A stretch of DNA of 59,427 nucleotides from Roseateles saccharophilus (lineage in GTDB: Bacteria; Pseudomonadota; Gammaproteobacteria; Burkholderiales; Burkholderiaceae_C), in the NCBI RefSeq assembly GCF_004342485.1, contig NZ_SMBU01000032.1, positions 1-59,427 on the forward strand, written 5' to 3'. Below are positions 1,440 through 35,174 of the stretch, piece by piece. Every line of letters starts with the position of its first letter. The stretch's first letter is position 1. Below the pieces are notes generated by a model. It saw only the letters and a list, made by a program, of their open reading frames with translations. It did not search any database and was not told where the DNA came from. Made by a program: the position numbers and the translations under genes.

Positions 1440-1601
1440 CACAACTCCTCGCAGCGGTATTCTGGGCGGCGGCGGCGCCCAGGCATTGATCGAGCGCAAG
1501 TGCTGCGGCCGGTGTCGCGCGCAACATGCCAATGGGCGTCCCCGCTGAACGGCCTGCCGCGCAAAATGCTTTCTGCGGTCAATGGCGGGAGCGCTGGCGA
1601 A

Positions 1602-3038
1602 ATGGCCCACATGGCCTCCTTGGCAACCTTGAATCCGGACGCCTGGCTCTACGCGGGCGCATGGTCCGCGACCTGGTGGTCCGGCCTCCATCCGGAGACC
1701 GTGGGGCTGGCCATGCGCCAGCGGCGCCTGGCCAGGCTCATCGACCAGGCCCTGTCGGCCTCGCCCTTCTACAAAAAGCGTGGCGGCGGCAGGCTGTGCG
1801 ACTTCAGGCCGACCACCAAGCACGAGCTGATGGCCTGCTTCGACGACTGGGCGACCGACCGCCGCATCACGCGCGCGGCGCTGGAGTCCTTCGTCGCCGA
1901 TCCGCAGAGGGCCGCCAGCCCCTGGCTGGGCAGGTATCTGGTCTGGACGAGCTCGGGAACATCGGGCGAGATGGGCTACTTCATCCAGGACGCCACCAGC
2001 ATGGCGGCCTACGACGCCATCGACTCGCTGCGCCTGCGCGGGCGCGCGCCGCTGGACAACCTCAACCCGCTGTGGGGCCTGGACCAGCGCTTCGCCTTCG
2101 TGGGGGCCACGGGAGGGCATTTCGCCGGCTTCGTCAGCCTGGAGCGCATGCGGCGTGCCACGCACGGCCGGCCGACGATCCAGGTGGTCTCTGCGCTGGA
2201 GCCGGTCGCGCGCATCGCGGAGCAACTCGCGGTGATCGATCCCACCGTCCTGATCTGCTATCCGAGCGCGGCGGTGCTGCTGGCGGAGCGGCAACTGTCC
2301 GGCACCCTGGGGCTGGACCTGACCGAGGTCTGGCTGGGTGGCGAGCAGTTCACGCCCGGCCAGCGCGCGCTGATCCAGGCAGCCTTCCAATGCCCCGTCC
2401 GAAACAACTACGGTGCCTCGGAGTTCTTCTCCATCGCCTCCGAATGCCGGTTCGGGAACCTGCATGTCAACGAGGACTGGGTGATCCTGGAGCCGGTGGA
2501 CGCCAACCTGCAGCCCCTGTCCGGCGACGGCTTCTCCGCTTCCGTGCTGCTGACGAACCTGGCCAATCTGGTCCAGCCGCTGCTGCGCTATCAGCTCACG
2601 GACCGGGTGCGGTTCGCCCCGCGGCCCTGTCCCTGCGGGGATCGGTTCCGCGTGATCGAGGTCGACGGCCGCTCCGACGACATACTGCGGTTCCAGGACG
2701 CGCAGGGCGGACCGGTCCCGGTCCTTCCGCTGGCCTTGGAGACCGTGATCGAGGAGGGTGCCGGCATCACGCATTTCCAGCTGCTGTGCCGCGGCAGCGC
2801 GGTGATCGAGGTGCGCTTCGACGCCGAGCTACCGGACGCGCCTGCGGCCTACGAGAGGCTGCGGGCGGTGTTGCTGGCGTATCTGCGGCAGCACCGCGTC
2901 GCCGGCCTACGAACCCGGTTCAGCCGGGCCGCACCGCAACGGGAGCAGCGCAGCGGAAAGCTGCGGCGCATTGTCGCGGTCCAGGCCCGGTCTCAGGGCA
3001 GGGGTGAGGTCTCAGGCTCCAGCCCGGCCTCCGCGTAG
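1602..3038 (+). CDS. PaaK-like adenylate-forming enzyme (phenylacetate-CoA ligase family)
   Basis: A 478-residue member of the PaaK/COG1541 group of adenylate-forming ligases, which activate a carboxylic acid with ATP and often transfer it to CoA. The ATP-binding P-loop is WTSSGTSGEMGYF, the aromatic-rich NNYGASEFFS matches the A5 region, and LLRYQLTDRVRF plus a CPCG segment match the conserved region before the C-terminal lid. The substrate is unknown. ATG codons at 1566 and 1611 are also possible starts; 1602 is a compromise with a loose GGCGGGAG upstream. The 3' end overlaps the convergent DUF4015 gene by 46 bases. It is divergent from the alcohol dehydrogenase, suggesting linked use of an alcohol, aldehyde or acid series, which is inference. 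Confidence 0.8.
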   Translation: MAHMASLATLNPDAWLYAGAWSATWWSGLHPETVGLAMRQRRLARLIDQALSASPFYKKRGGGRLCDFRPTTKHELMACFDDWATDRRITRAALESFVADPQRAASPWLGRYLVWTSSGTSGEMGYFIQDATSMAAYDAIDSLRLRGRAPLDNLNPLWGLDQRFAFVGATGGHFAGFVSLERMRRATHGRPTIQVVSALEPVARIAEQLAVIDPTVLICYPSAAVLLAERQLSGTLGLDLTEVWLGGEQFTPGQRALIQAAFQCPVRNNYGASEFFSIASECRFGNLHVNEDWVILEPVDANLQPLSGDGFSASVLLTNLANLVQPLLRYQLTDRVRFAPRPCPCGDRFRVIEVDGRSDDILRFQDAQGGPVPVLPLALETVIEEGAGITHFQLLCRGSAVIEVRFDAELPDAPAAYERLRAVLLAYLRQHRVAGLRTRFSRAAPQREQRSGKLRRIVAVQARSQGRGEVSGSSPASA

Positions 3039-4252
3039 CGGTTGCCCGGGTTCCACAGCATCCAGCCATTGGTGCCCACGGCGTCGGCCGCCTCGATCTG
3101 CGCGCGGATCTCGTGTTCGCCGAAGACGCGCCGGTCGAACGCATAGTCGCGGAAGGCCTGCAGCCAGGGGCGAAAGCGCGTGCCTGGCAGGCCGGTGCGC
3201 GCAAGCGCCCGCTGCAGGCTGCGCTGCACGATCTCGTAGGGCGCGGCAACCGGGTCGCGGTAGCCGGGAATGCCGAAGCTGAACCCCGAGGGGTAGAGCA
3301 TGGGCGAGAGGTAGTCGACATGCCCGGCGATGGCTTCGAGCTGCTGGCCGATGTGCGTGTCGTTGCTGTTCCAGGTCACGTAGCCAAAGATGTCGGCGGC
3401 GACGAAGACGTTGTAGCGCCCCAGCCGCTGCTGGGCCGCGTCGAGAAAGCCGCCGATCGCCGCGATGCGGCGGTCTTCGGTATCGGGCTCCGAGAAGGCC
3501 AGGCCGCTGGCGTCGGGGAAGCGCAGGTAGTCGAACTGGATCTCGTCGAAGCCGAGCACGGCCGCCTCCTCGGCAAGCGCCAGATTGCGCTCCCAGGCCA
3601 TGCGGCGGAACGGGTCTATCCAGGCCAGGCCCTCGCGGTCCTTCCACACGGCGCCCTGGGCGTCGTGCACGGCCCATTCCGGGTGGGCCGTGGCATAGGG
3701 CTCGTCCTTGAAGGTGACGATGCGGGCGATCAGGTAGAGCCCGCGCTCGTGCAGGCTGCGCACCAGGGCCGCCATGTCGCGCACCGTGACCAGCGTCTGC
3801 GCCAGGCCGGCCGCGGTCAGCGCCGCGCTGGGGTAGGGCACCAGGCCGCGGTCGCCCTTCACGTCGATCACCAGCGCGTTCAGCTCCGTGTCGTCGATCA
3901 ACTTCAGCGCATCGCCGCGCAGCTTGGCGCTGCCGATGCCGTAGACCGACAGATACAGGGCCTTGGGCCGCAAGGGCTTCAGCGCGAGCGCGAGCGGCGC
4001 GGACGGCGCGACCGTGCCCCGGTACCTCGCATAGCCCGGCGCGCGCGCGGTGATCGGGCCGCCCGCGACGGGTTCGCCCACCTCGAAGCGGCCCTGGGCA
4101 TCGCAGCGCCGGACCTCGGCGCCGACCACCACGCTGGCGAACGGGATGGGGCGGCCCGTCTCGGCGTCCTTCACCATGCCGTCCAGGGCGCGTGCGGGCA
4201 ACGCCGCGATGCCCAGCACAAGGGCGAGCCAGATCGACGCAGCCGCTCTCAT
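2993..4252 (-). CDS. Secreted DUF4015 putative glycoside hydrolase with N-terminal CarboxypepD_reg-like domain
   Basis: The 419-residue product starts with a signal peptide (MRAAASIWLALVLGIAALPARA). A small beta-sandwich segment follows (GMVKDAETGRPIPFASVVVG), typical of carboxypeptidase regulatory-like repeats. A (beta/alpha)8-type DUF4015 domain then runs from about residue 95 to the end, with ALVIDVKGDRG, DEIQFDYLRFPD, VAADIFGY and YLSPMLYPS. In this family the acidic residues of the barrel strands are thought to be catalytic, but the substrate is not established. The start codon overlaps the stop of the upstream polysaccharide deacetylase by four bases (ATGA), so the two are translationally coupled. 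An extracellular polysaccharide is the obvious substrate class. Confidence 0.85.
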   Translation of the reverse strand: MRAAASIWLALVLGIAALPARALDGMVKDAETGRPIPFASVVVGAEVRRCDAQGRFEVGEPVAGGPITARAPGYARYRGTVAPSAPLALALKPLRPKALYLSVYGIGSAKLRGDALKLIDDTELNALVIDVKGDRGLVPYPSAALTAAGLAQTLVTVRDMAALVRSLHERGLYLIARIVTFKDEPYATAHPEWAVHDAQGAVWKDREGLAWIDPFRRMAWERNLALAEEAAVLGFDEIQFDYLRFPDASGLAFSEPDTEDRRIAAIGGFLDAAQQRLGRYNVFVAADIFGYVTWNSNDTHIGQQLEAIAGHVDYLSPMLYPSGFSFGIPGYRDPVAAPYEIVQRSLQRALARTGLPGTRFRPWLQAFRDYAFDRRVFGEHEIRAQIEAADAVGTNGWMLWNPGNRYAEAGLEPETSPLP

Positions 4253-5103
4253 GGTGGCGCCTCGCTGCTGAAGGCGGCCTGCAGCCGCGCCGCGAGCTGA
4301 TGGGCATCGACGCTGTCGACCATCAGATGGCGCGGCACGGCGAACGGCGGGTCGGCGGCGCTGGCCGAGCGGTTGCCCAGCGCGAACGCCGCCTGGTAGC
4401 CGGCCTCGGCGGCCTGCAGGGCCAGGCCCTCGTCGCTGAGGCCGAAGGGCCAGGCCAGCAGGTCGACGGGGCGTGACAGGCGCTGCTCCAGCGTGCTGCG
4501 CGAACGGGTCAGCTGGTCGGCGGCGAAGCGCCGGAAGGCGTCCGGCGGCATGCGCTCGCGCTCGCGCAGCAGGTTGGGATGCCAGAAGGTGTGCGACTGC
4601 ACCGAGACCAGCGGGCTGGCTGCCAGCTCGCGCAGCTGGGGCCAGGTCATCGCGTAGGCGGCGTTGGAGATGGCGGAGGGGTAAACGAACAGCGTCACCG
4701 GCCAGTTGCGCTCTCGCAGCAGCGGCGCCATCACCTCGAACTGCGACCGGTGGCCGTCGTCGGCCGTGAGCACGACGGCGCGTGGCGGCAGCGACGCGCC
4801 AGCGGCCCCCGCCAACCGCCAGGCCACCCATTCGGACAGCGGGATCACTTGGCAGGAGAAGCGCTCGAGCATGCGCAACTGCGACTCGAAGTTCGCGACG
4901 CGCAGCGTCATGCTGTCGAGGGCGGCAGCCGCGAAACGGTGGAACACCAGAATGGGCACATGCCGCGCCGCCGCTGCCAAGGCGGCAGGCGCGCCAGCCC
5001 AGGCTGCAGCGCCGGCGAGGCTGCAGACGAGGGCGCGGCGCCTGCGGTCGACAAGGCCTGCTCCCGTGGCCGAAAGGCTGCGCGGTGTTGCCGGCAAGGT
5101 CAT
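4249..5103 (-). CDS. Exported polysaccharide deacetylase family protein
   Basis: A 284-residue NodB-fold (carbohydrate esterase 4) protein. The N-terminus has an arginine-rich, Tat-like export signal (DRRRRALVCSLAGAAAWAG). The core begins with the strand PILVFHRF. The metal and base motif appears as VLTADDGHRS (usually TFDDG), and the two metal histidines as QSHTFWHPN. The later LLAWPFG segment matches the conserved arginine/proline motif. Such enzymes remove acetyl groups from N-acetylhexosamine polymers in the periplasm or outside the cell. It is coupled to the DUF4015 gene. The pairing recalls the two-domain PgaB protein (deacetylase plus hydrolase-like domain), here as separate genes; that comparison is inference. 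The start is uncertain; an in-frame alternative lies at 5151. Confidence 0.85.
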   Translation of the reverse strand: MTLPATPRSLSATGAGLVDRRRRALVCSLAGAAAWAGAPAALAAAARHVPILVFHRFAAAALDSMTLRVANFESQLRMLERFSCQVIPLSEWVAWRLAGAAGASLPPRAVVLTADDGHRSQFEVMAPLLRERNWPVTLFVYPSAISNAAYAMTWPQLRELAASPLVSVQSHTFWHPNLLRERERMPPDAFRRFAADQLTRSRSTLEQRLSRPVDLLAWPFGLSDEGLALQAAEAGYQAAFALGNRSASAADPPFAVPRHLMVDSVDAHQLAARLQAAFSSEAPP

Positions 5104-5243
5104 GGGCAAATGATGGTCCCGTTGGCGTCGTGCGGACTTGACGCGGCGCAAGACTCACCTGGAAGCAGGGCAATTGAGGCCCTGCAAGCCCGGAGCGGGT
5201 TCACCCCAGGTAAACCCGTCCGATGAGGGCGTCAGCGGCTGCC

Positions 5244-5249
5244 TAGAAT
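5244..5249 (+). promoter_or_regulatory. Candidate -10 element of phaR
   Basis: TAGAAT matches the sigma-70 consensus TATAAT at five of six positions and lies 28 bases upstream of the phaR start. No convincing -35 is visible at standard spacing, which fits a regulated or weak promoter. The PhaR-like element begins at its last base. Confidence 0.4.
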
Positions 5250-5262
5250 TTGCTGCACTGCA
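5249..5262 (+). promoter_or_regulatory. PhaR operator-like element in the phaR leader
   Basis: TTTGCTGCACTGCA sits between the candidate -10 and the ribosome-binding site of phaR. The identical 14-mer occurs in front of the phasin gene at 19565. PhaR proteins are known to bind TGC-rich sequences in phasin and phaR promoters and to autorepress. Both the shared word and its position immediately after the -10 support an operator. Confidence 0.7.
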
Positions 5263-5276
5263 CAGGAGACATCCGC

Positions 5277-5831
5277 ATGGCGACAGCCCGCAAGAAGGCG
5301 GCGACGACGAACGAGCAAACCGGCGAAGCCAAGCCCGGCCTGCGCGTCCTCAAGAAGTACCCCAACCGCCGCCTGTACGACACCCAGACCAGCAGCTACA
5401 TCACGCTGGCCGACGTGAAGCGCATGGTGCTGGACGGCGTCGACTTCGAGGTGCACGACGCCAAGACCCAGGAAGACCTGACCCGCGCCATCCTGCTGCA
5501 GATCATCCTGGAGGAAGAAACCGGCGGCGTGCCGATGTTCTCCACCGCGTCCCTGGCCCAGATCATCCGCTTCTACGGCCATGCGATGCAGGGCGTCATG
5601 GGCGGCCTGCTGGAGCGCCAGATGCAGGCCTTCACCGACATGCAGCAGCGCTTCACCGAGCAGACGCCCGGCATGCCCTTCACCCCCGAGGCCTGGACGG
5701 GCCTGATGGGCGCTTTGCCGACACAGGTGGCCGAGCAGTCCAAGACGCTGATGAACCAGTGGCAGGAGCAGCTGAAGAACGCCGGCGCGATGTTCCCCTT
5801 CGGCGTGCCGCCGGGCAGCAAAAAGCCCTGA
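5277..5831 (+). CDS. phaR: Polyhydroxyalkanoate synthesis repressor PhaR
   Basis: This 184-residue protein controls polyhydroxyalkanoate storage genes. The N-terminal DNA-binding domain carries the family signature [20 protein letters not shown] and [20 protein letters not shown]. The PHB accumulation regulatory domain follows ([17 protein letters not shown], then [15 protein letters not shown]). The C-terminus, rich in Gln, Met and Phe, is typical of beta-proteobacterial members. In the known mechanism PhaR represses the phasin gene and itself, and leaves DNA when it binds nascent polymer granules. AGGAGA precedes the start at good spacing. A matching operator-like element lies in its own leader and in front of the phasin gene 14 kb away, supporting both autoregulation and a phasin link. 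Confidence 0.95.
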
Positions 5832-5857: not shown

Positions 5858-7240
5858 ATGAACGAAACGACCACCTCCGTCCCGAAGATCGGCTTCGTCA
5901 GTCTCGGCTGCCCGAAAGCCCTGACCGACTCCGAGCTGATCCTGACCCAGCTCCGCGCCGAGGGCTACGAGACCTCCAAGACCTTCGCCGGTGCCGACCT
6001 GGTGATCGTCAACACCTGCGGTTTCATCGACGACGCGGTCAAGGAGAGCCTGGACACCATCGGCGAGGCCCTGGCCGAGAACGGCAAGGTCATCGTCACC
6101 GGCTGCCTGGGCGCCAAGGCCGGCCATGCCAGCAGCGACGCCGGCAGCCTGGTGCGCGAGATCCACCCCAGCGTCTTGGCCGTGACCGGCCCGCATGCGA
6201 CGCAGGAGGTCATGGACGCGGTGCATACCCATGTGCCCAAGCCCCACGACCCCTTCGTCGACCTGGTGCCCAGCTATGGCATCAAGCTCACGCCCAAGCA
6301 TTACGCCTACCTGAAGATCAGCGAGGGCTGCAACCACCGCTGCTCCTTCTGCATCATCCCCAGCATGCGCGGCGACCTCGTCTCCCGCCCCATCGGCGAC
6401 GTGCTGAACGAGGCGCGCGCGCTGTTCGAGAGCGGCGTGAAGGAGCTGCTGGTCATCAGCCAGGACACCTCGGCCTACGGCGTGGACGTGAAGTACCGCA
6501 CCGGCTTTTGGGACGGCAAGCCGGTCAAGACCCGCATGCTGGACCTGGTCGCCCAGCTCGGCGAGATCGCCAAGCCTTATGGCGCCTGGGTGCGCCTGCA
6601 CTATGTCTACCCCTATCCGCACGTGGACGAGGTGCTGCCGCTGATGGGTCAAGGCCTGGTGCTGCCCTATCTCGACGTGCCCTTCCAGCATTCCCATCCC
6701 GACGTGCTCAAGCGCATGAAGCGCCCGGCCAACGGCGAGAAGAACATGGAGCGCATCCTGCGCTGGCGCGAGGCCTGCCCGGATCTCGTCATCCGCTCGA
6801 CCTTCATCGCCGGCTTCCCCGGCGAGACCGAAGCCGAGTTCCAGCATCTGCTGGATTTCATGCAGGAAGCCAGGATCGACCGCGCCGGCTGCTTCGCCTA
6901 TTCGCCGGTCGAAGGCGCTAGCGCCAACGACATCCCTGGGGCGCTGCCCGACGAGGTGCGCGAGGAGCGCCGCGCGCGCTTCATGGCCGTGGCCGAGCAG
7001 GTGTCGGCCGCCAAGCTGCAGGCCCGCGTGGGCCAGACACTGCAGGTGCTGGTCGATGCCGCGCCGGCGCTGGGCCGCAAGGGCGGGGTGGGGCGGTCCT
7101 ACGCGGATGCGCCCGAGATCGACGGCAGCGTGAAGATCCTGCCGCCCGAGAAGGCCAGCAAGACGATGAAGGTCGGCGACTTCGTGCGTGCCCGCGTCGT
7201 CGCGGCCGATGGCCACGACCTGGTCGCGTCGCTGGTATGA
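5858..7240 (+). CDS. rimO: Ribosomal protein S12 methylthiotransferase RimO
   Basis: RimO adds a methylthio group to the beta-carbon of a conserved aspartate of ribosomal protein S12. The 460-residue product shows all expected parts: an N-terminal MTTase domain with iron-sulfur cysteines in LGCPKA, NTCGF and TGCLG; a radical SAM domain with C158, C162 and C165 (CNHRCSFC); and a C-terminal TRAM domain ending [20 protein letters not shown]. The [18 protein letters not shown] segment is characteristic of the MiaB/RimO group, and PRG-type spacing and length agree with RimO rather than MiaB. It starts 26 bases after phaR, so the two may be co-transcribed. Confidence 0.95.
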
Positions 7241-7292
7241 CGTGGGCCGAGCGCTGGGCCGCTCCCGAGCCGGCCCGCATCCCCTCGGGGAA

Positions 7293-7316
7293 TCGTCCGT
7301 CGTACTCGACGGACGA
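7293..7316 (+). promoter_or_regulatory. Perfect 10-bp hairpin in the leader of the PLP lyase gene
   Basis: Arms TCGTCCGTCG and CGACGGACGA are separated by the loop TACT. The 3' arm touches the ribosome-binding site GAGGGG (7315-7320), nine bases before the following ATG. There is no T-tract, so this is not a classical terminator of rimO. It could influence translation or RNA stability of the next gene. Confidence 0.5.
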
Positions 7317-27627: not shown

Positions 27628-29607
27628 GTGACTGACATCGTGACAAGCCGCCCCTTCGCGCCCGCCTGGTATGCCACGCTGGCCCTGTCTTTCGCGGCCC
27701 AGGCCGCGCCCGGCCCCGACGCCTCGGACGACAAGGCGCTCGAAGCGCTCTTGAAGCGGGAAGTCCAAGGTCCTTCCCGCTATGCCCAGAGCCTGATGGA
27801 CGCGCCGGCCTCGGTCAGCGTGCTGGAGCGCGAGGAGTCCGATGCGCTCGGGCACCAGACGGTCGGCGACCAGCTGGCCCGCCTGCCGGGCGTCTACCTC
27901 AGCAATTCGCGCACCTACAGCGCCCTCGGCCTGCGCGGCTTCAGCCGCCCCGGCGACTACAACTCGCGGGTGCTGATGGCCATCGACGGCCAGCGGGTCA
28001 ACGAGGCCATCTTCGACCAGGGCCTGCCCCAGCTGGAGTTCCCCGTCGTCGCGGAATGGGTGCAGCGCGTGGAACTGGTGCGAGGCCCCGGGTCTTCGGT
28101 CTATGGCAGCAATGCGCTGCTGGGCGTCGTCAACGTGGTCACGCTCGACGGGGCCGACGCGCCCGGCCTGAGCACCCAGGGCAGCGTCGGGGAGCATGGC
28201 CTGCGCCGCGTCGAGATGCACTACGGCGCGGCCGACGCGGGCGACCGCGACCTCTTCGTCGGCCTCAACCTGCAGGACTCGGCGGGCGAGAACCTCTACC
28301 TGCCGGAGCTCGGCACGCCCGATGGCTGGGTGCGCCGGCTGGACGGCGAGCAGCAGGCCGCGCTGCTCGTCAAATACCGCGACGGCCCCTGGCGCCTGTC
28401 GCTGAACGCGGTGCGCCGCGACAAGGACGCCGCGACGGCTCCCTATGGCACGGAGCCGGGCGTCGCCGGCACCCGCTACAGCGACAGGGAGGTGCTCACC
28501 GAGCTCGCCTACGACGCCGGCTGGCAGGACGATGTGCGCAGCAGCGTCAGGCTCAACGTGGCGGGCTACGAGTTCCGCGGCCGCTATGTGTTCGGCCCGC
28601 CGCCCGAGCGCATCAACCGCGACGAGGCCTATGCGCAGTGGACGACGCTGGAGGGTCGCGTGCTGTGGCGCGGCGTGCTCAACCACCAGCTGATGGCGGG
28701 CGCGGAGCTGCGCACCGCGCCCATCGGCGTGCAGCGCAACTACGACGTCTCGCCCTACAACGACATCCTGAACACCCGCTCCAGCCAGGATTCCGCCGCC
28801 CTCTATGCGCAGGACCAGTGGCGCCTGGCCCCGACGCTGCAGTTGACGACCGGCCTGCGCCTGGACCGCGTGCGCGGCTTCTCGCCGGCTCTGTCGCCGC
28901 GCGCCGTGCTGGCGCTGCGCCCGGACGAGCGCGAGTCCTTCAAGCTGATGTGGGCCCAGTCCTTCCGCACGCCCAATCTGTACGAGCGCTTCTACGACGA
29001 TGGCGGCGCCACCCAGATCGGCAATGCCGCGCTGAAGCCGGAGCGCCTGAATTCGGCCGAGGCCTCGTGGGAGCACCTGCTGCGCAACGGCCTGGCGCTC
29101 AGCGCCAATGCCTACTGGACGCAGATGAGCCGGCTGATCGAGCAGGTGCCGCTGAGCGACTCGCCCGACGCCGTCGTGCAGTACCGCAATGTGGGGCGGG
29201 TCAGGCTGCGCGGCGTGGACCTGGACATCGAGCAGCGTGCCGGCGGCGGCTGGCTGTGGCGCGGCAGTGCTTCATGGATGGATGCCCGCAACCAGAGTGG
29301 CGAGCGCCTGAGCAACGCGCCGACCTGGATGCTGAAGGGCCATCTGGTGTCGCCGCAATGGCGGGGCTGGCAGCTCGGCGTGGAGGGCAATGTGCTGGGG
29401 CCGCGCCTGGGTCGCGTGGAGGTGCCGACGTCCGTCGTCGTCAACGCCCATCTGCGCTACCGGGTCGATGCGCGCCAGAGCGTCTCGCTGCACCTGAACA
29501 ACGCGCTGGACCGCCATAACCTGGACCCGTCAACGCCCGATACGGCGTTGAGCGCCATCCCGCAGCTGGCGCGCGCCTGGCGTCTGGACTGGCGCATCAG
29601 CCTCTGA
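27628..29607 (+). CDS. TonB-dependent outer membrane receptor
   Basis: This 659-residue outer-membrane protein has an N-terminal export segment (residues 8-27), a plug domain and a 22-strand-type beta barrel. The plug carries DAPASVSVLEREE, LARLPGVYLSN, LRGFSRPGDYNSRVLMAIDG and VELVRGPGSSVYGSNALLGV. The barrel ends with an aromatic/hydrophobic C-terminal strand (RLDWRISL), as needed for BamA-dependent insertion. No convincing TonB box is visible. It is followed by YfiR and GGDEF/EAL genes on the same strand, spacing eight bases, so it may act as the outer-membrane member of a signalling module as well as a transporter. The GTG start is uncertain; a second GTG lies at 27640. Confidence 0.9.
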   Translation: MTDIVTSRPFAPAWYATLALSFAAQAAPGPDASDDKALEALLKREVQGPSRYAQSLMDAPASVSVLEREESDALGHQTVGDQLARLPGVYLSNSRTYSALGLRGFSRPGDYNSRVLMAIDGQRVNEAIFDQGLPQLEFPVVAEWVQRVELVRGPGSSVYGSNALLGVVNVVTLDGADAPGLSTQGSVGEHGLRRVEMHYGAADAGDRDLFVGLNLQDSAGENLYLPELGTPDGWVRRLDGEQQAALLVKYRDGPWRLSLNAVRRDKDAATAPYGTEPGVAGTRYSDREVLTELAYDAGWQDDVRSSVRLNVAGYEFRGRYVFGPPPERINRDEAYAQWTTLEGRVLWRGVLNHQLMAGAELRTAPIGVQRNYDVSPYNDILNTRSSQDSAALYAQDQWRLAPTLQLTTGLRLDRVRGFSPALSPRAVLALRPDERESFKLMWAQSFRTPNLYERFYDDGGATQIGNAALKPERLNSAEASWEHLLRNGLALSANAYWTQMSRLIEQVPLSDSPDAVVQYRNVGRVRLRGVDLDIEQRAGGGWLWRGSASWMDARNQSGERLSNAPTWMLKGHLVSPQWRGWQLGVEGNVLGPRLGRVEVPTSVVVNAHLRYRVDARQSVSLHLNNALDRHNLDPSTPDTALSAIPQLARAWRLDWRISL

Positions 29608-29615
29608 GCATCGGC

Positions 29616-30182
29616 ATGACCCGGCTCCTGGCCATCCCGAGCAGCAGCGCCCGCTGGCGGCGCCGGCTCGGCTGCGCGCTGCTGGCCTGGCTGTCCTGTG
29701 CCGGGCCGGCCCTGGCGCAGACGGGTGGCCCGGAGGCGCTGAAGGCGGAGGTCGTCTACCGCCTGCTGATGTTCGTCAGCTGGCCCGCCGAGCGCGAACA
29801 GCCCGGCCATAGCCTGCAGCTGTGCACGCTGGGCGAGGGGCGCATGGAGGGCGCGCTGCAGGGCCTGGCCGGGCGGCAGATCCGCCAACTCACGCTGGAC
29901 GTTCGCCGCATGGCCCGCGGCGACTCGCCTGCCGGCTGCCATCTGCTCTACCTGCCGGCGCCCCAGGCCGGCCTGCGCACCCAGCTCGCCGAACTGCCGG
30001 TCCTCGTCGTCTCCGACGTGGCCGCGATGTTCGATCAGGGCGCCATGGTCAACCTGCAGGTCGAGGACGGCCGCATCGTTTTCGACGTGGATCTCGACGC
30101 CGCCCGTCATGCGGGTCTTGGCGTCAGCGCCAAGCTGTTGCGGCTGGCGCGATATGTGCGACACCAGGGTGGGGCGCCATGA
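29616..30182 (+). CDS. YfiR family periplasmic protein (DUF4154)
   Basis: The 188-residue product has an N-terminal signal peptide (RLGCALLAWLSCAGPALAQ) and a DUF4154 domain starting with EALKAEVVYRLLMFVSWPAE. Two cysteines (CTLGEG and AGCHLLYL) and the strands PVLVVSDVAAMFDQGAMVNL and GRIVFDVDLDAARHAGLGV, then SAKLLRLA, match YfiR. In Pseudomonas YfiR is a periplasmic inhibitor that binds the inner-membrane diguanylate cyclase YfiN. Here its partner is the next gene, coupled by a four-base overlap (ATGA). Confidence 0.92.
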   Translation: MTRLLAIPSSSARWRRRLGCALLAWLSCAGPALAQTGGPEALKAEVVYRLLMFVSWPAEREQPGHSLQLCTLGEGRMEGALQGLAGRQIRQLTLDVRRMARGDSPAGCHLLYLPAPQAGLRTQLAELPVLVVSDVAAMFDQGAMVNLQVEDGRIVFDVDLDAARHAGLGVSAKLLRLARYVRHQGGAP

Positions 30183-31990
30183 AGCCGGGATTTGCCGATG
30201 CCGTCGACCGCCTGCGCGAACTGATGGTCGCGTTCGCGGCGTTGCTGGCCTTCGGCCTGGTGCTGAGCCTGCTGCAGTACTGGCGCTTGCTGGAGCGCCA
30301 GACCGAGGACCTGCGCACCCAGGCCAGCATCGTTGCGCAGACGGTCTCCGCCGCCATGGTCTTCGACAGTCGCAGCGATGCCGGCGATAGCCTGCTGGCG
30401 CTGGAGCAAAGCCCGGCCATCGTGCATGCCCGGCTGATCCGGACCGACGGCAGCGTCTTCACCCAGTTCATCCGGCTGCCGGCAGAAAGCTCCTGGCTGC
30501 ACGACCTGGCCGGCATCGCACGGGTCGAGGTGCCGGTGACGGCCGACGGCCACCGCGTCGGCCTGCTGGCCGTCGAGGCCAGCCAGCTGCCGATGTGGAC
30601 CGACCTGGTCCGCTTCCTGGCGGCGACCCTGGGCACGCTGCTGGCGACGGCAGGCCTGGCCTGGTGGCTGTCCAAGCGCCTGCGCGTGCAGATCAAGGAG
30701 GTCGAGCGCCGCACGCGCTACATCGCCCGCTTCGACGCGCTGACCGACCTGCCCAACCGCGGGCATATGCGCCACCTGCTGGAGCGCGCCTTCCGCCAGC
30801 AGGAGGCGGCCACGCTGCTCATCCTGGACCTGGACGACTTCAAGCAGATCAACGACCAGCACCGCCACGCCGCCGGCGACGCGGTGCTGCAGGCCGTCAG
30901 CCAGCGCCTTCAGCTGCTGTGCCGCCATGGCGACCGGGCCGCCCGGCTGTCGGCCGACGAGTTCGCCGTGCTGCTGAAGCCGGGCCTGGAGGGCGAGGCG
31001 TTGCGGGCCCATGTCGCCCAGATGCAGAACGAGCTGACGAAGCCGGTTTCCTACGACGGCCAATGGCTGCCCCTGCATGTCTGCGTGGGCGCCGTTTCCC
31101 TGCCCGAGCATGCGCGCGACGCCAGCGAAGCCATGCGCTGCGCCGACGCGGCGATGCGGCATGCCAAGCAGATCGGGCGGGACAGCTTCCAGCCCTTCAC
31201 GCCGCAGATCGGCGAGGCCCTGCACTCGCGGCTGGCGCTGGAGCGCGACATGGTCGAGGCGCTGGCCCAGGACCAGTTCTGCCTGGCCTACCAGCCGCAG
31301 TACGACGCGCAGCGCCGCGTGCTGGGCCTGGAGGCGCTCGCGCGCTGGCGCCATCCCGAGCGGGGCTGGGTATCGCCGGTGGAGTTCATCCCGGTCGCCG
31401 AGAGTTCGGGCCACATCGTCGAGCTCGGCCTCGTCCTGCTCGCCGTGCTGCGCCGGGACCTGGATGCGTGGAAGGCCCTGGGCCTGAAGCCGCCGGCGGT
31501 GTCCATCAACCTGTCCTGGGAGCAGTGCCGCAAGCCCCAGCACCGCGAGCGCTTCCTGCAGCAGCTCAAGCTGCTGCAGCTGGGGCCGGACGAGGTCGAG
31601 TTCGAGCTCACCGAGAGTGCCGACTTCGAGGACATCGACAAGCCCGATTCCTTCGTCTTCACGTTGCAGGGCCTGGGCTACGGCCTGGCCATCGACGACT
31701 TCGGCACCGGCTACAGCTCGCTGGCCTATCTGCGCCGCATCCGCTGCCGCAAGCTCAAGATAGACCGACTCTTCGTGCACGGCCTGTCGGCCAACGCCGA
31801 TTCGCACACCCTGGTCGAATCGATGGTGCGCGTGGCCCATGCGATGCACATGCTCGTCGTCGCCGAGGGCGTGGAGCTGCCGGCCGACGAGGCGGCCTTG
31901 ATCGCGATGGGCTGTGATCTGATGCAGGGCTTCGGCTTCAGCCGGCCCGTCGAGCCGCAGGCGGTGCCGGCGCTGTTCGGCGTGGCTTGA
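30179..31990 (+). CDS. Membrane GGDEF-EAL protein with degenerate GGDEF site
   Basis: A 603-residue cyclic-di-GMP enzyme. Two membrane helices (about 15-34 and 147-164) flank a periplasmic CHASE8-like sensor, the YfiR-docking region in YfiN. A GGDEF domain follows (DALTDLPNRGHM, LILDLDDFKQIND), but its active-site loop reads LSADEF (residues 257-262) instead of GGDEF, so cyclase activity is doubtful. The EAL domain is intact: E385-A386-L387, then FELTES, AIDDFGTGYSS, LKIDRLFV and VVAEGVE. I infer a YfiR-regulated phosphodiesterase. GTP might still bind the degenerate domain and activate it. It is the third gene of the receptor module. Confidence 0.93.
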   Translation: MKPGFADAVDRLRELMVAFAALLAFGLVLSLLQYWRLLERQTEDLRTQASIVAQTVSAAMVFDSRSDAGDSLLALEQSPAIVHARLIRTDGSVFTQFIRLPAESSWLHDLAGIARVEVPVTADGHRVGLLAVEASQLPMWTDLVRFLAATLGTLLATAGLAWWLSKRLRVQIKEVERRTRYIARFDALTDLPNRGHMRHLLERAFRQQEAATLLILDLDDFKQINDQHRHAAGDAVLQAVSQRLQLLCRHGDRAARLSADEFAVLLKPGLEGEALRAHVAQMQNELTKPVSYDGQWLPLHVCVGAVSLPEHARDASEAMRCADAAMRHAKQIGRDSFQPFTPQIGEALHSRLALERDMVEALAQDQFCLAYQPQYDAQRRVLGLEALARWRHPERGWVSPVEFIPVAESSGHIVELGLVLLAVLRRDLDAWKALGLKPPAVSINLSWEQCRKPQHRERFLQQLKLLQLGPDEVEFELTESADFEDIDKPDSFVFTLQGLGYGLAIDDFGTGYSSLAYLRRIRCRKLKIDRLFVHGLSANADSHTLVESMVRVAHAMHMLVVAEGVELPADEAALIAMGCDLMQGFGFSRPVEPQAVPALFGVA

Positions 31991-31991
31991 G

Positions 31992-32237
31992 TCAGTCTGC
32001 TCTGATGAACCAGCGCGAGCGCAGCAGCGCCGCCGCGTCGCCCTCGGAGACGTAGAGCGTGGGTCGGCCGGCATCGAACTCGTAGAGCCGCCCGCTGGCC
32101 ACGCCGCGCACGACGACCGGCGAACTGGCGCGGTAGCGCACCAGCACGCGCCGCTCGGCCGGGCCGGCCGCGGGCCGCTCCGGCGTCGGGCTCGGGGCCT
32201 GGCGCAGCGCCGCGCGGCCTTGTCCGCAACATCCCAT
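31992..32237 (-). CDS. Small uncharacterised protein with N-terminal GCCG motif
   Basis: This 81-residue protein starts MGCCGQGR, is rich in Pro and Ala to about residue 28, and then has a compact beta-rich tail (RVLVRYRASSPVVVRGVASG, RLYEFDAGRPTLYVSEGDAA). I do not recognise a named family. The tail vaguely recalls short accessory proteins of phage or phage-tail-like clusters, but no phage gene is present nearby and I would not rely on it. AAGGAGAG precedes the start. It begins one base after the DUF1360 stop, so it is the last gene of the three-gene unit. Confidence 0.7.
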   Translation of the reverse strand: MGCCGQGRAALRQAPSPTPERPAAGPAERRVLVRYRASSPVVVRGVASGRLYEFDAGRPTLYVSEGDAAALLRSRWFIRAD

Positions 32238-32238
32238 G

Positions 32239-32556
32239 TCATCTCTCCTTGCGTGGCGAGGCGAGGGCGTCCAGCCCCGCCTCGACGATGCAGACCGCGC
32301 CCGACAGCGCCAGCACGCCCAGGGCCCAGCCGAGCGGGTCCTGCGCAATCAGCAGGGCCAGCGGCGCCGCCACCCACAGCGACACGCAGTAGGGGCAGTC
32401 CATCAACTGCCCCCAGGCGCCGTTGCCCAGGCGCGTGCGCAGCTTCAGCACGAGGCCGAAGGGGCCGTCCTCGGCGGCCAGCAGATGCGTGAGCCGCCAG
32501 GCCGCGAGCGTGGCCAGCGCCAGGCGGGGCCAGAAGCCCAGATCCTCCAAGCTCAC
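32239..32556 (-). CDS. DUF1360 family small membrane protein
   Basis: The 105-residue protein has two to three hydrophobic helices (LALATLAAWRLTHLL, LWVAAPLALLIA, LGWALGVLALSGAVCIVEAG) and the DUF1360 hallmark MDCPYCVSLWV, a CxxC pair at the membrane surface. The function is unknown; the CxxC could bind metal or undergo thiol exchange. The GTG start overlaps the stop of the cysteine-rich gene (GTGA), showing translational coupling. It is followed one base later by the small GCCG protein. Its presence beside a cysteine-rich partner suggests that the two act together. Confidence 0.78.
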   Translation of the reverse strand: MSLEDLGFWPRLALATLAAWRLTHLLAAEDGPFGLVLKLRTRLGNGAWGQLMDCPYCVSLWVAAPLALLIAQDPLGWALGVLALSGAVCIVEAGLDALASPRKER

Positions 32557-34925
32557 AGCGGTTCCGGGCCGTTGATGATCTTGATTGGGAACAGCTTCCA
32601 GCCGGAGTAGTGAACCGTTCCTTCGTCGACGACGGTCTTGTCCCAGGCTTCCAGCACGACGACGTAGACGCAGGCCTCGCCGGGGCCGAGCAGTTGGTCG
32701 GCCGGCAGGCCCAGCGGGTTGCTGGCCGCGTCCAGCACCTGCAGGTTCCAGGGCGTCAGCGTGCCGGTGGCCAGGCTCTCGGCCGGCAGGGCCAGCGCGC
32801 GCGCGGGCACCGTGTTGGTCGAGTTGATCAGCATGACCTGGGGCGACACCGCACCCTGCTTGGTGAAGCGCACTTGGTAGCTGTCGAAGTTGTCGCTGGT
32901 CGGCGCGCTCAGGTCGCCGCGGTCGATGTACTGGTCCCAGGCATAGCCGCGGATGTCGACGGTCTTGAAGATGCCCTCGTGGGTCTGGGTGTACATGTCG
33001 GAACAGGGCGCCTGGTTGCCGATGCCGACGACGGCCGCCTGGATGGGCTCGTTGTCGATCCAGGCGCGCTGGATGTCGTAGTAGCTGTTGCCGGCGGTGT
33101 CGATGACCTGCAGCAGGACGCTGAACTTGCCGGTGCCGCCTTGCTGGTGGGGCGGGTCCTGCCTGGGCAGGGAGTTGCTGTCGAAGCCCGCGGGCTCCAG
33201 CGAGGGCACGTTCCAGCAGGTGCAGAAGTTGGTCGAGTCGATGTGTACGCAGATGCATTCGCTGCGCGAACCCCAGACATTGGTGAGGATGCTGGGCAAG
33301 GGGTTGCCGTCCAGCACATTGCTGGCGCGCACCTGGTCGGCCGTGTAGTTGATGGGCGGGCCGCTGGGCTGGGCGATGCTCATCGGGTTGAACTCGATGT
33401 GGGTGACGAGGCGCCAGCCGCCGCCGGGCACGATGCTCGTGAAGGGCGCGGGCTGGGGTTCGCTGAACGTCGGGTCGGGGATGGCCCAGATCGTGTACTC
33501 GCGGATCTTCTCGCCCGCGCAGCCATAGACATTGGCCGCGCCGCGCACATGCAGGCCGCCGCCGACGGTGGACAGCGCCGCCGCCGCGCTGTCGGCCGCG
33601 CGCAGCGGCTCGGCCGGGTTGGGGTAGTCCACCGACCAGGGCGTGCTGACGCGCTTGATGTAGACCTCGTTGACCGACAGCGCGAAGCTGCCCGTGCAGG
33701 GCGGCTGCAGCTCGGCGCCGCTGGCGGAGAAGACGCGCAGCGTCAGCGTGAAGGTGGTGGAGCTGAGCAGCTCGATGCCGGCGTCCACCGCGCACTTGCG
33801 CGTGTCCACCCAGCCGAGGTTGCCGCCCGCGACCGAGAAGTTGCCCTGCGTGGCGGCCACGTCCGGCAGGCCCAGGTTGTTGGGGTAGACAACCACGCCG
33901 CCGAGCAGGCTGCCGCCGGGGCTGCGCACCTCGATGAGGTAATGGCCGAAGCCCGTGCCCTCGGCGTCGCCGCGCACGGCCTCGAGGATGCGGCCGGGCA
34001 GGATGTCGGTCTCGCCGCGCACGCAGCCGGCGGGTGCGGTCAGTGCGCAGTGCAGCGGGCGCTGGCAGCGGCGCAGGCAGGCGCGGTAGCCGCGCAGGCA
34101 GCGGAACACGTCGCGCAGGTTGCGGGCGCGCGCCAGGCAGCAGCCGAAGCGGATGGCGCACAGCGCCCAGCAACGGCAGAACCAGTAGAGGGGATCGGCG
34201 CGGTGCTTGGCGATGAGCTCGCGGCCCATCAGGGCGGCGGCCGTGTCGGTGCTGAGCAGGCGTTCGAGGATCTGCGTGTTGGCGTCGCCATCCTCGAAGC
34301 AGTCCACCTGGCCGGCCAGCACCTGCTCGGGCAAGCCCTGAGTGAACTCGACGCTGGCGAGCTGGTCGTCCAGATAGGGCTTGTAGGCCTCGGCCAGCGC
34401 CTTGACGAGGTGGTTGAAGTCGGCCCGCTCGGCGGCCGTGGGCGGGTTGGCGACCGGCGCGCCCAGCACCTCGCGCACGCAGCGCCAGTAGCGCCACAGG
34501 TAGTAGCTGGAGCCGCGGAAGGAGCGCGGTCCGCGGCACATCAGCCAGCCGAAGACGATGCAGCAGCGCAGGTGCAGCAGGCACCAGCGCCAGCGCTCCA
34601 GCGGCCCGAGCTGCTCGCGCACGGCCGCGGGCAGCACGCGCTGCGCGACCTCCTCGCTGCTGAAGCGCTCGAACAGGGCCATGGCCTGCGCGAACTCGTC
34701 CTCGCAGCTCGGCGGGTTGGCGAGTGCGTCCTTGATGAGGGCGTCGGGCGAGTCGGCGCGTTGCAGGTCGGCGGCCAGCACGGGCTTGTAGGCGGCCAGC
34801 AACTCGCCCAGCACGAAGTGGAAGTCGTCGTCCAGCGGCTCATTGGCATCGTCACCTGCCCCGTCGGCGGGCAGGGCAGCTGTGGGCATGGCGGTGGATC
34901 GGGGCGGCTTGGGGGTGGTGGCCAT
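32553..34925 (-). CDS. Uncharacterised 790-residue cysteine-rich protein with internal duplication
   Basis: I do not recognise this protein. It lacks a signal peptide. The N-terminal part (residues about 25-310) looks like a duplicated helical unit. Copy 1 has SCEDEFAQAMALFERF, RWCLLHLRCCIVFGWLMC and LWRYWRC; copy 2 has DCFEDGDANTQILERL, WFCRCWALCAIRFGCC and CLRGYRACLRRC. Both copies share a Cys-Cys/FG/Arg-rich core. The C-terminal part (about 320-790) is beta-rich with repeated Ig- or jelly-roll-like strands and more cysteines (SECICVHIDS, NFCTCWNV). AAGGAA precedes the start. It heads a three-gene unit with DUF1360 and a small GCCG protein. A structural or surface-associated role is possible but unproven. 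Confidence 0.8.
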   Translation of the reverse strand: MATTPKPPRSTAMPTAALPADGAGDDANEPLDDDFHFVLGELLAAYKPVLAADLQRADSPDALIKDALANPPSCEDEFAQAMALFERFSSEEVAQRVLPAAVREQLGPLERWRWCLLHLRCCIVFGWLMCRGPRSFRGSSYYLWRYWRCVREVLGAPVANPPTAAERADFNHLVKALAEAYKPYLDDQLASVEFTQGLPEQVLAGQVDCFEDGDANTQILERLLSTDTAAALMGRELIAKHRADPLYWFCRCWALCAIRFGCCLARARNLRDVFRCLRGYRACLRRCQRPLHCALTAPAGCVRGETDILPGRILEAVRGDAEGTGFGHYLIEVRSPGGSLLGGVVVYPNNLGLPDVAATQGNFSVAGGNLGWVDTRKCAVDAGIELLSSTTFTLTLRVFSASGAELQPPCTGSFALSVNEVYIKRVSTPWSVDYPNPAEPLRAADSAAAALSTVGGGLHVRGAANVYGCAGEKIREYTIWAIPDPTFSEPQPAPFTSIVPGGGWRLVTHIEFNPMSIAQPSGPPINYTADQVRASNVLDGNPLPSILTNVWGSRSECICVHIDSTNFCTCWNVPSLEPAGFDSNSLPRQDPPHQQGGTGKFSVLLQVIDTAGNSYYDIQRAWIDNEPIQAAVVGIGNQAPCSDMYTQTHEGIFKTVDIRGYAWDQYIDRGDLSAPTSDNFDSYQVRFTKQGAVSPQVMLINSTNTVPARALALPAESLATGTLTPWNLQVLDAASNPLGLPADQLLGPGEACVYVVVLEAWDKTVVDEGTVHYSGWKLFPIKIINGPEPL

Positions 34926-35174
34926 GGCTTGTTTCCTTGCAGAGGTCGTCGTTGAAAGGGAAGGGCGGCGCTGCTGCGCTTCTTGAATCAACCCTAGGCG
35001 CCACCTCGCCCGGCCACCCCCCTAGCGGGCCAAAAAGCCTAGGGAGGGCGGCGGTTCTTATTCACCGATGGTTTCTGCCTGCATGACGTATGCGACGCCG
35101 GGGGGCAGGCGCTCTGCGGTCAGAATCGGCGCCTCATCGACGCGACCGGCGCAGCCGGCCCCTTGGAGACCTGA
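34926..35174. promoter_or_regulatory. Divergent intergenic region with a CTAG cluster
   Basis: This 249-base gap separates the cysteine-rich unit (minus) from the M16 protease gene (plus). CTAG occurs at 34994, 35022 and 35039; outer copies form an 8-bp inverted repeat, CCCTAGGC (34992-34999) and GCCTAGGG (35037-35044). CTAG is generally scarce in proteobacterial genomes, so the cluster may mark an operator. No gene was seen here. Confidence 0.45.

Follow-up and report, generated by a model that had tools for sequence, protein, structure and literature searches.

A phage-shared DUF1360 and small MGCC protein pair as a candidate docking module for exchangeable large proteins

Results

The three-gene locus

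In the window, by which we mean the whole stretch of 59,427 nucleotides that was analysed, the minus strand carries three consecutive genes in tandem at positions 34925-31992 (Table 1). They encode a large cysteine-rich protein (BIG), a DUF1360 protein and a small MGCC protein (SMALL). The GTG start of the DUF1360 gene lies within the TGA stop of BIG, giving a GTGA overlap, and a single base separates the DUF1360 stop from the SMALL start, immediately 5' of which stands AAGGAG. Coordinates, lengths, motifs, overlap, one-base gap and internal SD are all as an earlier sequence-only reading of this DNA had given them, which we checked by re-reading the sequence. All three genes are under purifying selection, with dN/dS values of 0.15-0.42 in four pairwise comparisons per gene (BIG 0.15-0.28; DUF1360 0.24-0.42; SMALL 0.15-0.25), and the trio is therefore more than a chance arrangement. 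The repeats 5' of BIG were compared by aligning four sequences, those of the window and of three close relatives.

Table 1. Positions of the genes and other features at the locus, in window coordinates
Feature	Position	Strand	Description
BIG gene (790 aa)	32553..34925	-	Cys-rich helical half ~28-292, then Ig/FnIII-like domains ~292-787
Duplicated Cys-rich helical region of BIG, residues 28-292	34050..34844	-	From hhalign and AlphaFold2
DUF1360 gene (105 aa)	32239..32556	-	PF07098; three hydrophobic stretches; MDCPYCVSLWV (CxxC) motif
SMALL gene (81 aa)	31992..32237	-	MGCCGQGRAALR head and C-terminal VRGxxSGRxYxF domain
CTAGG...CCTAGG repeats 5' of BIG	34989..35047	.	Candidate regulatory site; alike in L034, L035, L036

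One flank of the trio holds genes for a TonB receptor, a YfiR-like protein and a GGDEF-EAL protein, the other an M16 peptidase gene, a glyoxalase-type gene and one gene without match. None of the six flanking proteins scanned belongs to a phage family, in agreement with the earlier remark that the trio has no phage neighbour. As a separate observation, the TonB receptor, YfiR-like and CHASE8-GGDEF-EAL genes are consecutive at 27628-31990 and resemble a YfiR-type c-di-GMP control operon adjoining a receptor.

BIG and its cysteines

The duplicated, cysteine-rich helical region that had been read from the sequence of BIG is real: in a profile-profile comparison (hhalign), residues 28-160 align with residues 161-292 over 119 columns at an E-value of 4.7e-16. 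AlphaFold2 modelled the protein with a mean pLDDT of 90.1 (88.3 for residues 1-300). In this model, the second half resembles Ig/FnIII arrays, including adhesin, S-layer and similar domains, and the N-terminal half has no confident match in the PDB. Neither BIG nor SMALL has a significant match to a named or curated family: Pfam returned nothing for the two up to an E-value of 1, NCBIfam nothing for the trio, and the one PHROGs match of BIG, at 0.36, is meaningless. Relatives of BIG at E <=1e-3 numbered 264 among the candidates scored, 120 of them being listed.

Cysteine conservation was counted over 81 aligned homologues, the figures for the N-terminal half referring to the 68 rows that have the cysteine-rich half. 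Eight cysteines of this half (C115, C130, C250, C252, C262, C263, C276 and C287) are invariant in all 68 rows; C121 and C149 are kept in 67, C122 and C256 in 61, C283 in 60, and C74 and C209 in 53. Another four (C293, C469, C641 and C752) are kept in 81 of 81 homologues. Conspicuous cysteine motifs had been noted in all three proteins of the unit, and conserved cysteines are indeed present in each, but those of the SECICVHIDS/NFCTCWNV motifs of BIG are badly kept (C557 in 54, C559 in 22, C568 in 21 and C570 in 52 of 81).

The cysteine-rich half is missing from 13 of the 81 homologues, two of which (P0052 and P0055) are named Bacteroidales, and all 13 have a two-helix hydrophobic hairpin in its place. 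These proteins carry 3-7 lysines and arginines before the first hydrophobic window, 0-3 between the two windows and 1-3 after the second. No membrane-like window was found in residues 1-300 of BIG and of the three other long homologues tested. We infer that the cysteine-rich half also serves membrane attachment, either directly or via partners.

The DUF1360 protein and SMALL

The middle gene encodes a member of DUF1360 (PF07098), a family without known function, whose Bacillus subtilis member we take to be YngL. Its Pfam match (E 6.1e-7, 29.8 bits) exceeds the gathering cut-off of 21, as does the PF07098 match in the genome search (24.3 bits), and in PHROGs it matches phrog_781 (E 7.2e-7). An alignment of 10 rows has A8, C54, C57, S59 and W61 invariant. 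The protein has the CxxC-x-S-x-W core of the family, which is common to its phage members, and three hydrophobic stretches, the latter recognized by reading; the membrane component that had been proposed for the unit is supported by this. In the literature searched, DUF1360/PF07098 occurs in one paper, PMC10551460, which lists it in a table row.

The loop with the CxxC motif holds a total of 83 K+R against 4 in the opposite loop, as counted in 25 of 26 proteins (the pattern missed L097) with loops cut at fixed offsets. The CxxC loop is also longer, at 27-35 residues against 10 each, but the K+R densities still lie about sevenfold apart. By the positive-inside rule, these charges would place the CxxC motif on the cytoplasmic side. 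In SMALL, no hydrophobic window was seen on inspection by eye.

Conservation and spread of the unit

The order BIG-DUF1360-SMALL is kept in all 11 distinct loci that carry BIG, namely the window, G001, G005, G008, G016, G471, G523, G695, G730, G788 and the MAG contig L011; these were drawn from genome searches and one contig scan, with duplicates removed. Of 16 window genes searched in L010 and L011, only the trio was found, and L028-L033 have other flanking genes around it. Since the flanks differ, the common order is not merely shared synteny. The distribution is patchy: with the window's own genome included each time, BIG is present in 5 of 20 genomes of the genus, in 8 of the 399 genomes of the family sample (4 of 141 genera) and in 1 of 398 genomes of the phylum sample. 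The proposal of a jointly kept three-gene unit, for which a conserved order across genera had been named as a check, is thus borne out.

DUF1360 and SMALL as the constant pair

In the family sample, SMALL occurs in 20 genomes, and the 8 with BIG and the 8 with PF07098 all fall among these; no PF07098 match is more than about 150 bases away from SMALL (8/8 genomes). Of the 20 SMALL genomes, 8 have BIG, 5 have another large protein just upstream of DUF1360 and 7 have neither. The large partners are lettered by type, and the five alternative ones, which all immediately precede DUF1360 and share its strand, are of type B (L089, L091, L092), type C (L090) and type D (L096). L094, L097 and L099 have the pair without a visible cysteine-rich large ORF upstream, and L093, L095 and L100 have a SMALL-type domain without a DUF1360-like frame by pattern. 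At L098, two genes beside the pair are related to neighbours of the type B unit (identity 83% and 88%), with no match to the type B protein. In the order sample, SMALL was found in 2 of 320 genomes, the window's own and G901 from another family (L102), where the gene before DUF1360 and SMALL encodes a large protein sharing about 60% identity with type B. The expectation that the partners are found together consequently holds for BIG, which accompanies the pair in 11 of 11 loci, but not for SMALL, which is without BIG in 12 genomes and, by pattern, without a DUF1360 frame in 3 of these. As an observation made by eye, the SMALL-type C-terminal domains of L095 and L100 have no CCG head and lie between FIST-like and FAD-oxidase-like genes.

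The alternative partners are cysteine-rich as well. Among 189 long coding-like ORFs, which come from these loci and of which some are possibly spurious, 15 of the 17 highest in cysteine content are of type A or B, and types C and D reach 2.1% and 2.3% against a median of 1.24%; the arrangement of the cysteines in types B-D is another one. We rejected types B, C and D as homologues of BIG, as overall homology was not found and a short C-terminal stretch was all that matched. When a profile of the BIG C-terminus was run against 1023 ORFs of 12 loci, the best three matches were type B proteins (E 0.0015-0.0056), which have the stretch CCxYxLxLxxxxRTT in common with BIG; type C came fifth (E 3.8), behind an unrelated ORF, and type D did not appear. 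The type B proteins of L089, L091 and L092 are 85-87% identical, so their three matches amount to one independent case. Against curated families, types B-D gave at most a sub-threshold match (Big_6 in type C).

In a tree of DUF1360 proteins, built on 77-79 residues and weakly supported, type A is spread over more than one group: L028 groups with the partnerless L094 (0.97), and L030-L033 group with the type C locus L090 (0.75). This spread suggests partner exchange, short of proof.

Viral and phage links

The pair was also found in four viral contigs (L019, L050, L051 and L104). In L019, the SMALL gene overlaps the end of the DUF1360 gene about 2.4 kb before a gene for the terminase large subunit. 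A scan of viral contigs with the DUF1360 pattern gave five stretches, four of which have an MGCC small gene behind DUF1360, in L050 with one ORF separating the two; L105 was rejected, having no DUF1360 frame. The corresponding SMALL scan gave 17 stretches, of which 3 are SMALL genes (L050, L051 and L058, the same as L019) and 13 were rejected as short unrelated frames on translation. The remaining stretch, in L056, may hold a distant member and was left uncounted; at 1555-5455 of this viral contig, several short genes look similar to the C-terminal domain of SMALL on inspection. A gene of about 90-110 aa precedes DUF1360 in L019, L051 and L104, and a KTSC-type gene is Pfam-confirmed in L019 and similar by eye in L050, L051 and L104; because of these shared genes, the four contigs may not be independent.

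In annotated phages, DUF1360 has weak matches in four (E 0.04-0.09), and in the three examined the gene immediately precedes that for the portal protein; neither BIG nor SMALL has a match among annotated phages. A search of 50,697 phage records and 72,556 plasmid records gave no match to BIG, on which grounds we rejected a phage or plasmid origin of BIG itself, and the plasmids gave no match to types B and C. Six viral loci from a profile scan were rejected as well: the frames among those listed look like phage capsid-type proteins and share a QRAWIDNE stretch alone.

DUF1360 and SMALL can stand behind a different large protein or behind none, and they turn up in viral contigs too; BIG is therefore not what the unit is built around, which changes the picture given by the sequence-only reading. 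The constant part of the system is the pair of DUF1360 and SMALL.

Discussion

A docking pair for large clients

As judged from sequence features, the explanation that we favour, with a probability of roughly 40%, is a membrane/adaptor pair shared with phages that would work on the cytoplasmic face of the inner membrane and serve large client proteins which can be exchanged. DUF1360 would span the inner membrane with three helices and have its CxxC facing the cytoplasm, and SMALL would be soluble, an adaptor bridging DUF1360 and the client by means of its CCG head and its C-terminal domain. BIG would be synthesized without a signal peptide and tethered at this cytoplasmic face via its duplicated cysteine-rich half, whose contacts with the CxxC and CCG motifs would be of the thiolate/metal or the disulfide kind; in this position, it would present its Ig/FnIII-like domains. 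Given the charges around the CxxC and the lack of a hydrophobic window in SMALL and in residues 1-300 of BIG, all three cysteine-bearing parts would lie on the cytoplasmic side, and this shared side favours docking of the large client by the pair.

We count for docking the order kept in 11 of 11 BIG loci despite different flanks in several, the presence of SMALL in every BIG and every PF07098 genome of the family sample, the hydrophobic hairpin that stands in place of the cysteine-rich half in 13 of 13 homologues, the recurrence of the same architecture with other large proteins, the cysteine-rich partners, the DUF1360 loop charges and the viral pairs. Against it, we count the lack of any membrane-like window in residues 1-300, both in BIG and in the three other long homologues tested, a topology derived from charges and from loops cut at fixed offsets, and the small charge difference in the hairpin homologues (0-3 K+R in the loop, 1-3 after the hairpin). 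Furthermore, types B, C and D are not BIG homologues overall, and there are loci where the pair has no large protein in its vicinity. A broader version, which we regard as doubtful, is a general client-loading system in which the CxxC membrane protein and the CCG adaptor receive large, signal-less, cysteine-rich proteins in order to anchor, mature or export them. Clients would be recognized by the cysteine-rich module and/or the short C-terminal motif, and bacteria would exchange the client gene while retaining the phage-shared pair.

Alternative explanations

The resemblance of the second half of BIG to adhesin, S-layer and similar domains would also fit non-canonical export, with DUF1360 and SMALL helping large signal-less, Ig-like, surface-type proteins across the membrane by recognizing the C-terminal CCxYxLxLxxxxRTT stretch. 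The three best matches of the C-terminal profile agree with this; however, they represent one independent case, types C and D do not follow suit (E 3.8 and absent), and DUF1360 is very small for a transporter, so we hold export to be unlikely. The cysteines themselves could also point to metal handling, in which the cysteine-rich half of BIG would store or buffer a soft metal that the two small proteins load or sense. Eight invariant cysteines, several of them adjacent (CxC, CC), and the CxxC and CCG motifs of the partners speak for such a role, which nevertheless seems improbable to us in view of the other cysteine arrangements in types B-D, the lack of a metal gene among the six flanking proteins scanned and the lack of a confident PDB match for the N-terminal half.

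The viral occurrences bear on two further explanations. A phage-derived pair could act in exclusion of or defence against other phages, the large protein serving as its sensor or effector, and both the patchy presence and the three annotated phages in which DUF1360 adjoins the portal gene would fit. Yet a PADLOC scan of eight proteins matched 0 families at an E-value of 0.01, and no other defence gene was seen in the scanned flanks, which leaves this role about as improbable as metal handling. Finally, viral contigs and patchiness would also be seen if a phage-derived pair merely happened to sit behind unrelated genes, with no joint function at all. This is largely contradicted already and appears very improbable: the order is kept in 11 of 11 BIG loci, dN/dS values are 0.15-0.42, there are no internal stops among the BIG matches listed, and the same architecture recurs with other large proteins.

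Relation to known systems and significance

In the searches run here, no described system matched this architecture, and within these limits the system is undescribed; a combined literature search found nothing on it within its coverage, outside which lie subscription papers and preprints. Once the function is established, the system may nonetheless turn out to belong to a known kind. The closest likenesses concern single components. The DUF1360 family is here tied to SMALL and a large cysteine-rich protein. In the actinophages Xkcd426, Sixama and Big4, a small membrane-type protein with the CxxC core is encoded directly before the portal gene, but the similarity is weak (E 0.04-0.06) and no SMALL was recognized among the neighbouring small genes translated. 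The second half of BIG resembles RTX adhesin repeats (6xi1), FnIII-like modules of CbhA (3pdd) and a Deinococcus S-layer protein (8cka), at middling scores and in a fold that is common; unlike proteins with such Ig/FnIII arrays, BIG has no recognizable signal peptide, but a cysteine-rich helical half. Copper storage proteins (Csp), which carry many cysteines in helices, may resemble this N-terminal half, whose model gave no confident PDB match of any kind.

If docking by the pair holds true, DUF1360 and the small MGCC protein, both without known function, would gain a directly testable joint role. A set of large unannotated proteins would become recognizable as clients of one system, and a link would be drawn between bacterial cell biology and a gene pair that occurs close to the head and packaging genes of phages.

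Gene neighbourhoods of the type B loci

The surroundings of type B units have features of their own. An AraC/response-regulator gene lies upstream in L089, L091, L092 and L098, and a 434-aa CCPPL protein is encoded downstream in L089 and L102 and, in part, in L098. The MAG contig L098 keeps the regulator, DUF1360, a shortened-looking SMALL and a downstream gene but shows no gene for the large type B protein. Near the type B unit of L091 and L092 lies a protease-like gene whose Pfam match, to Nal1_C, is sub-threshold, and in L092 a calcineurin-type phosphoesterase gene lies downstream of the unit at 6087-7298.
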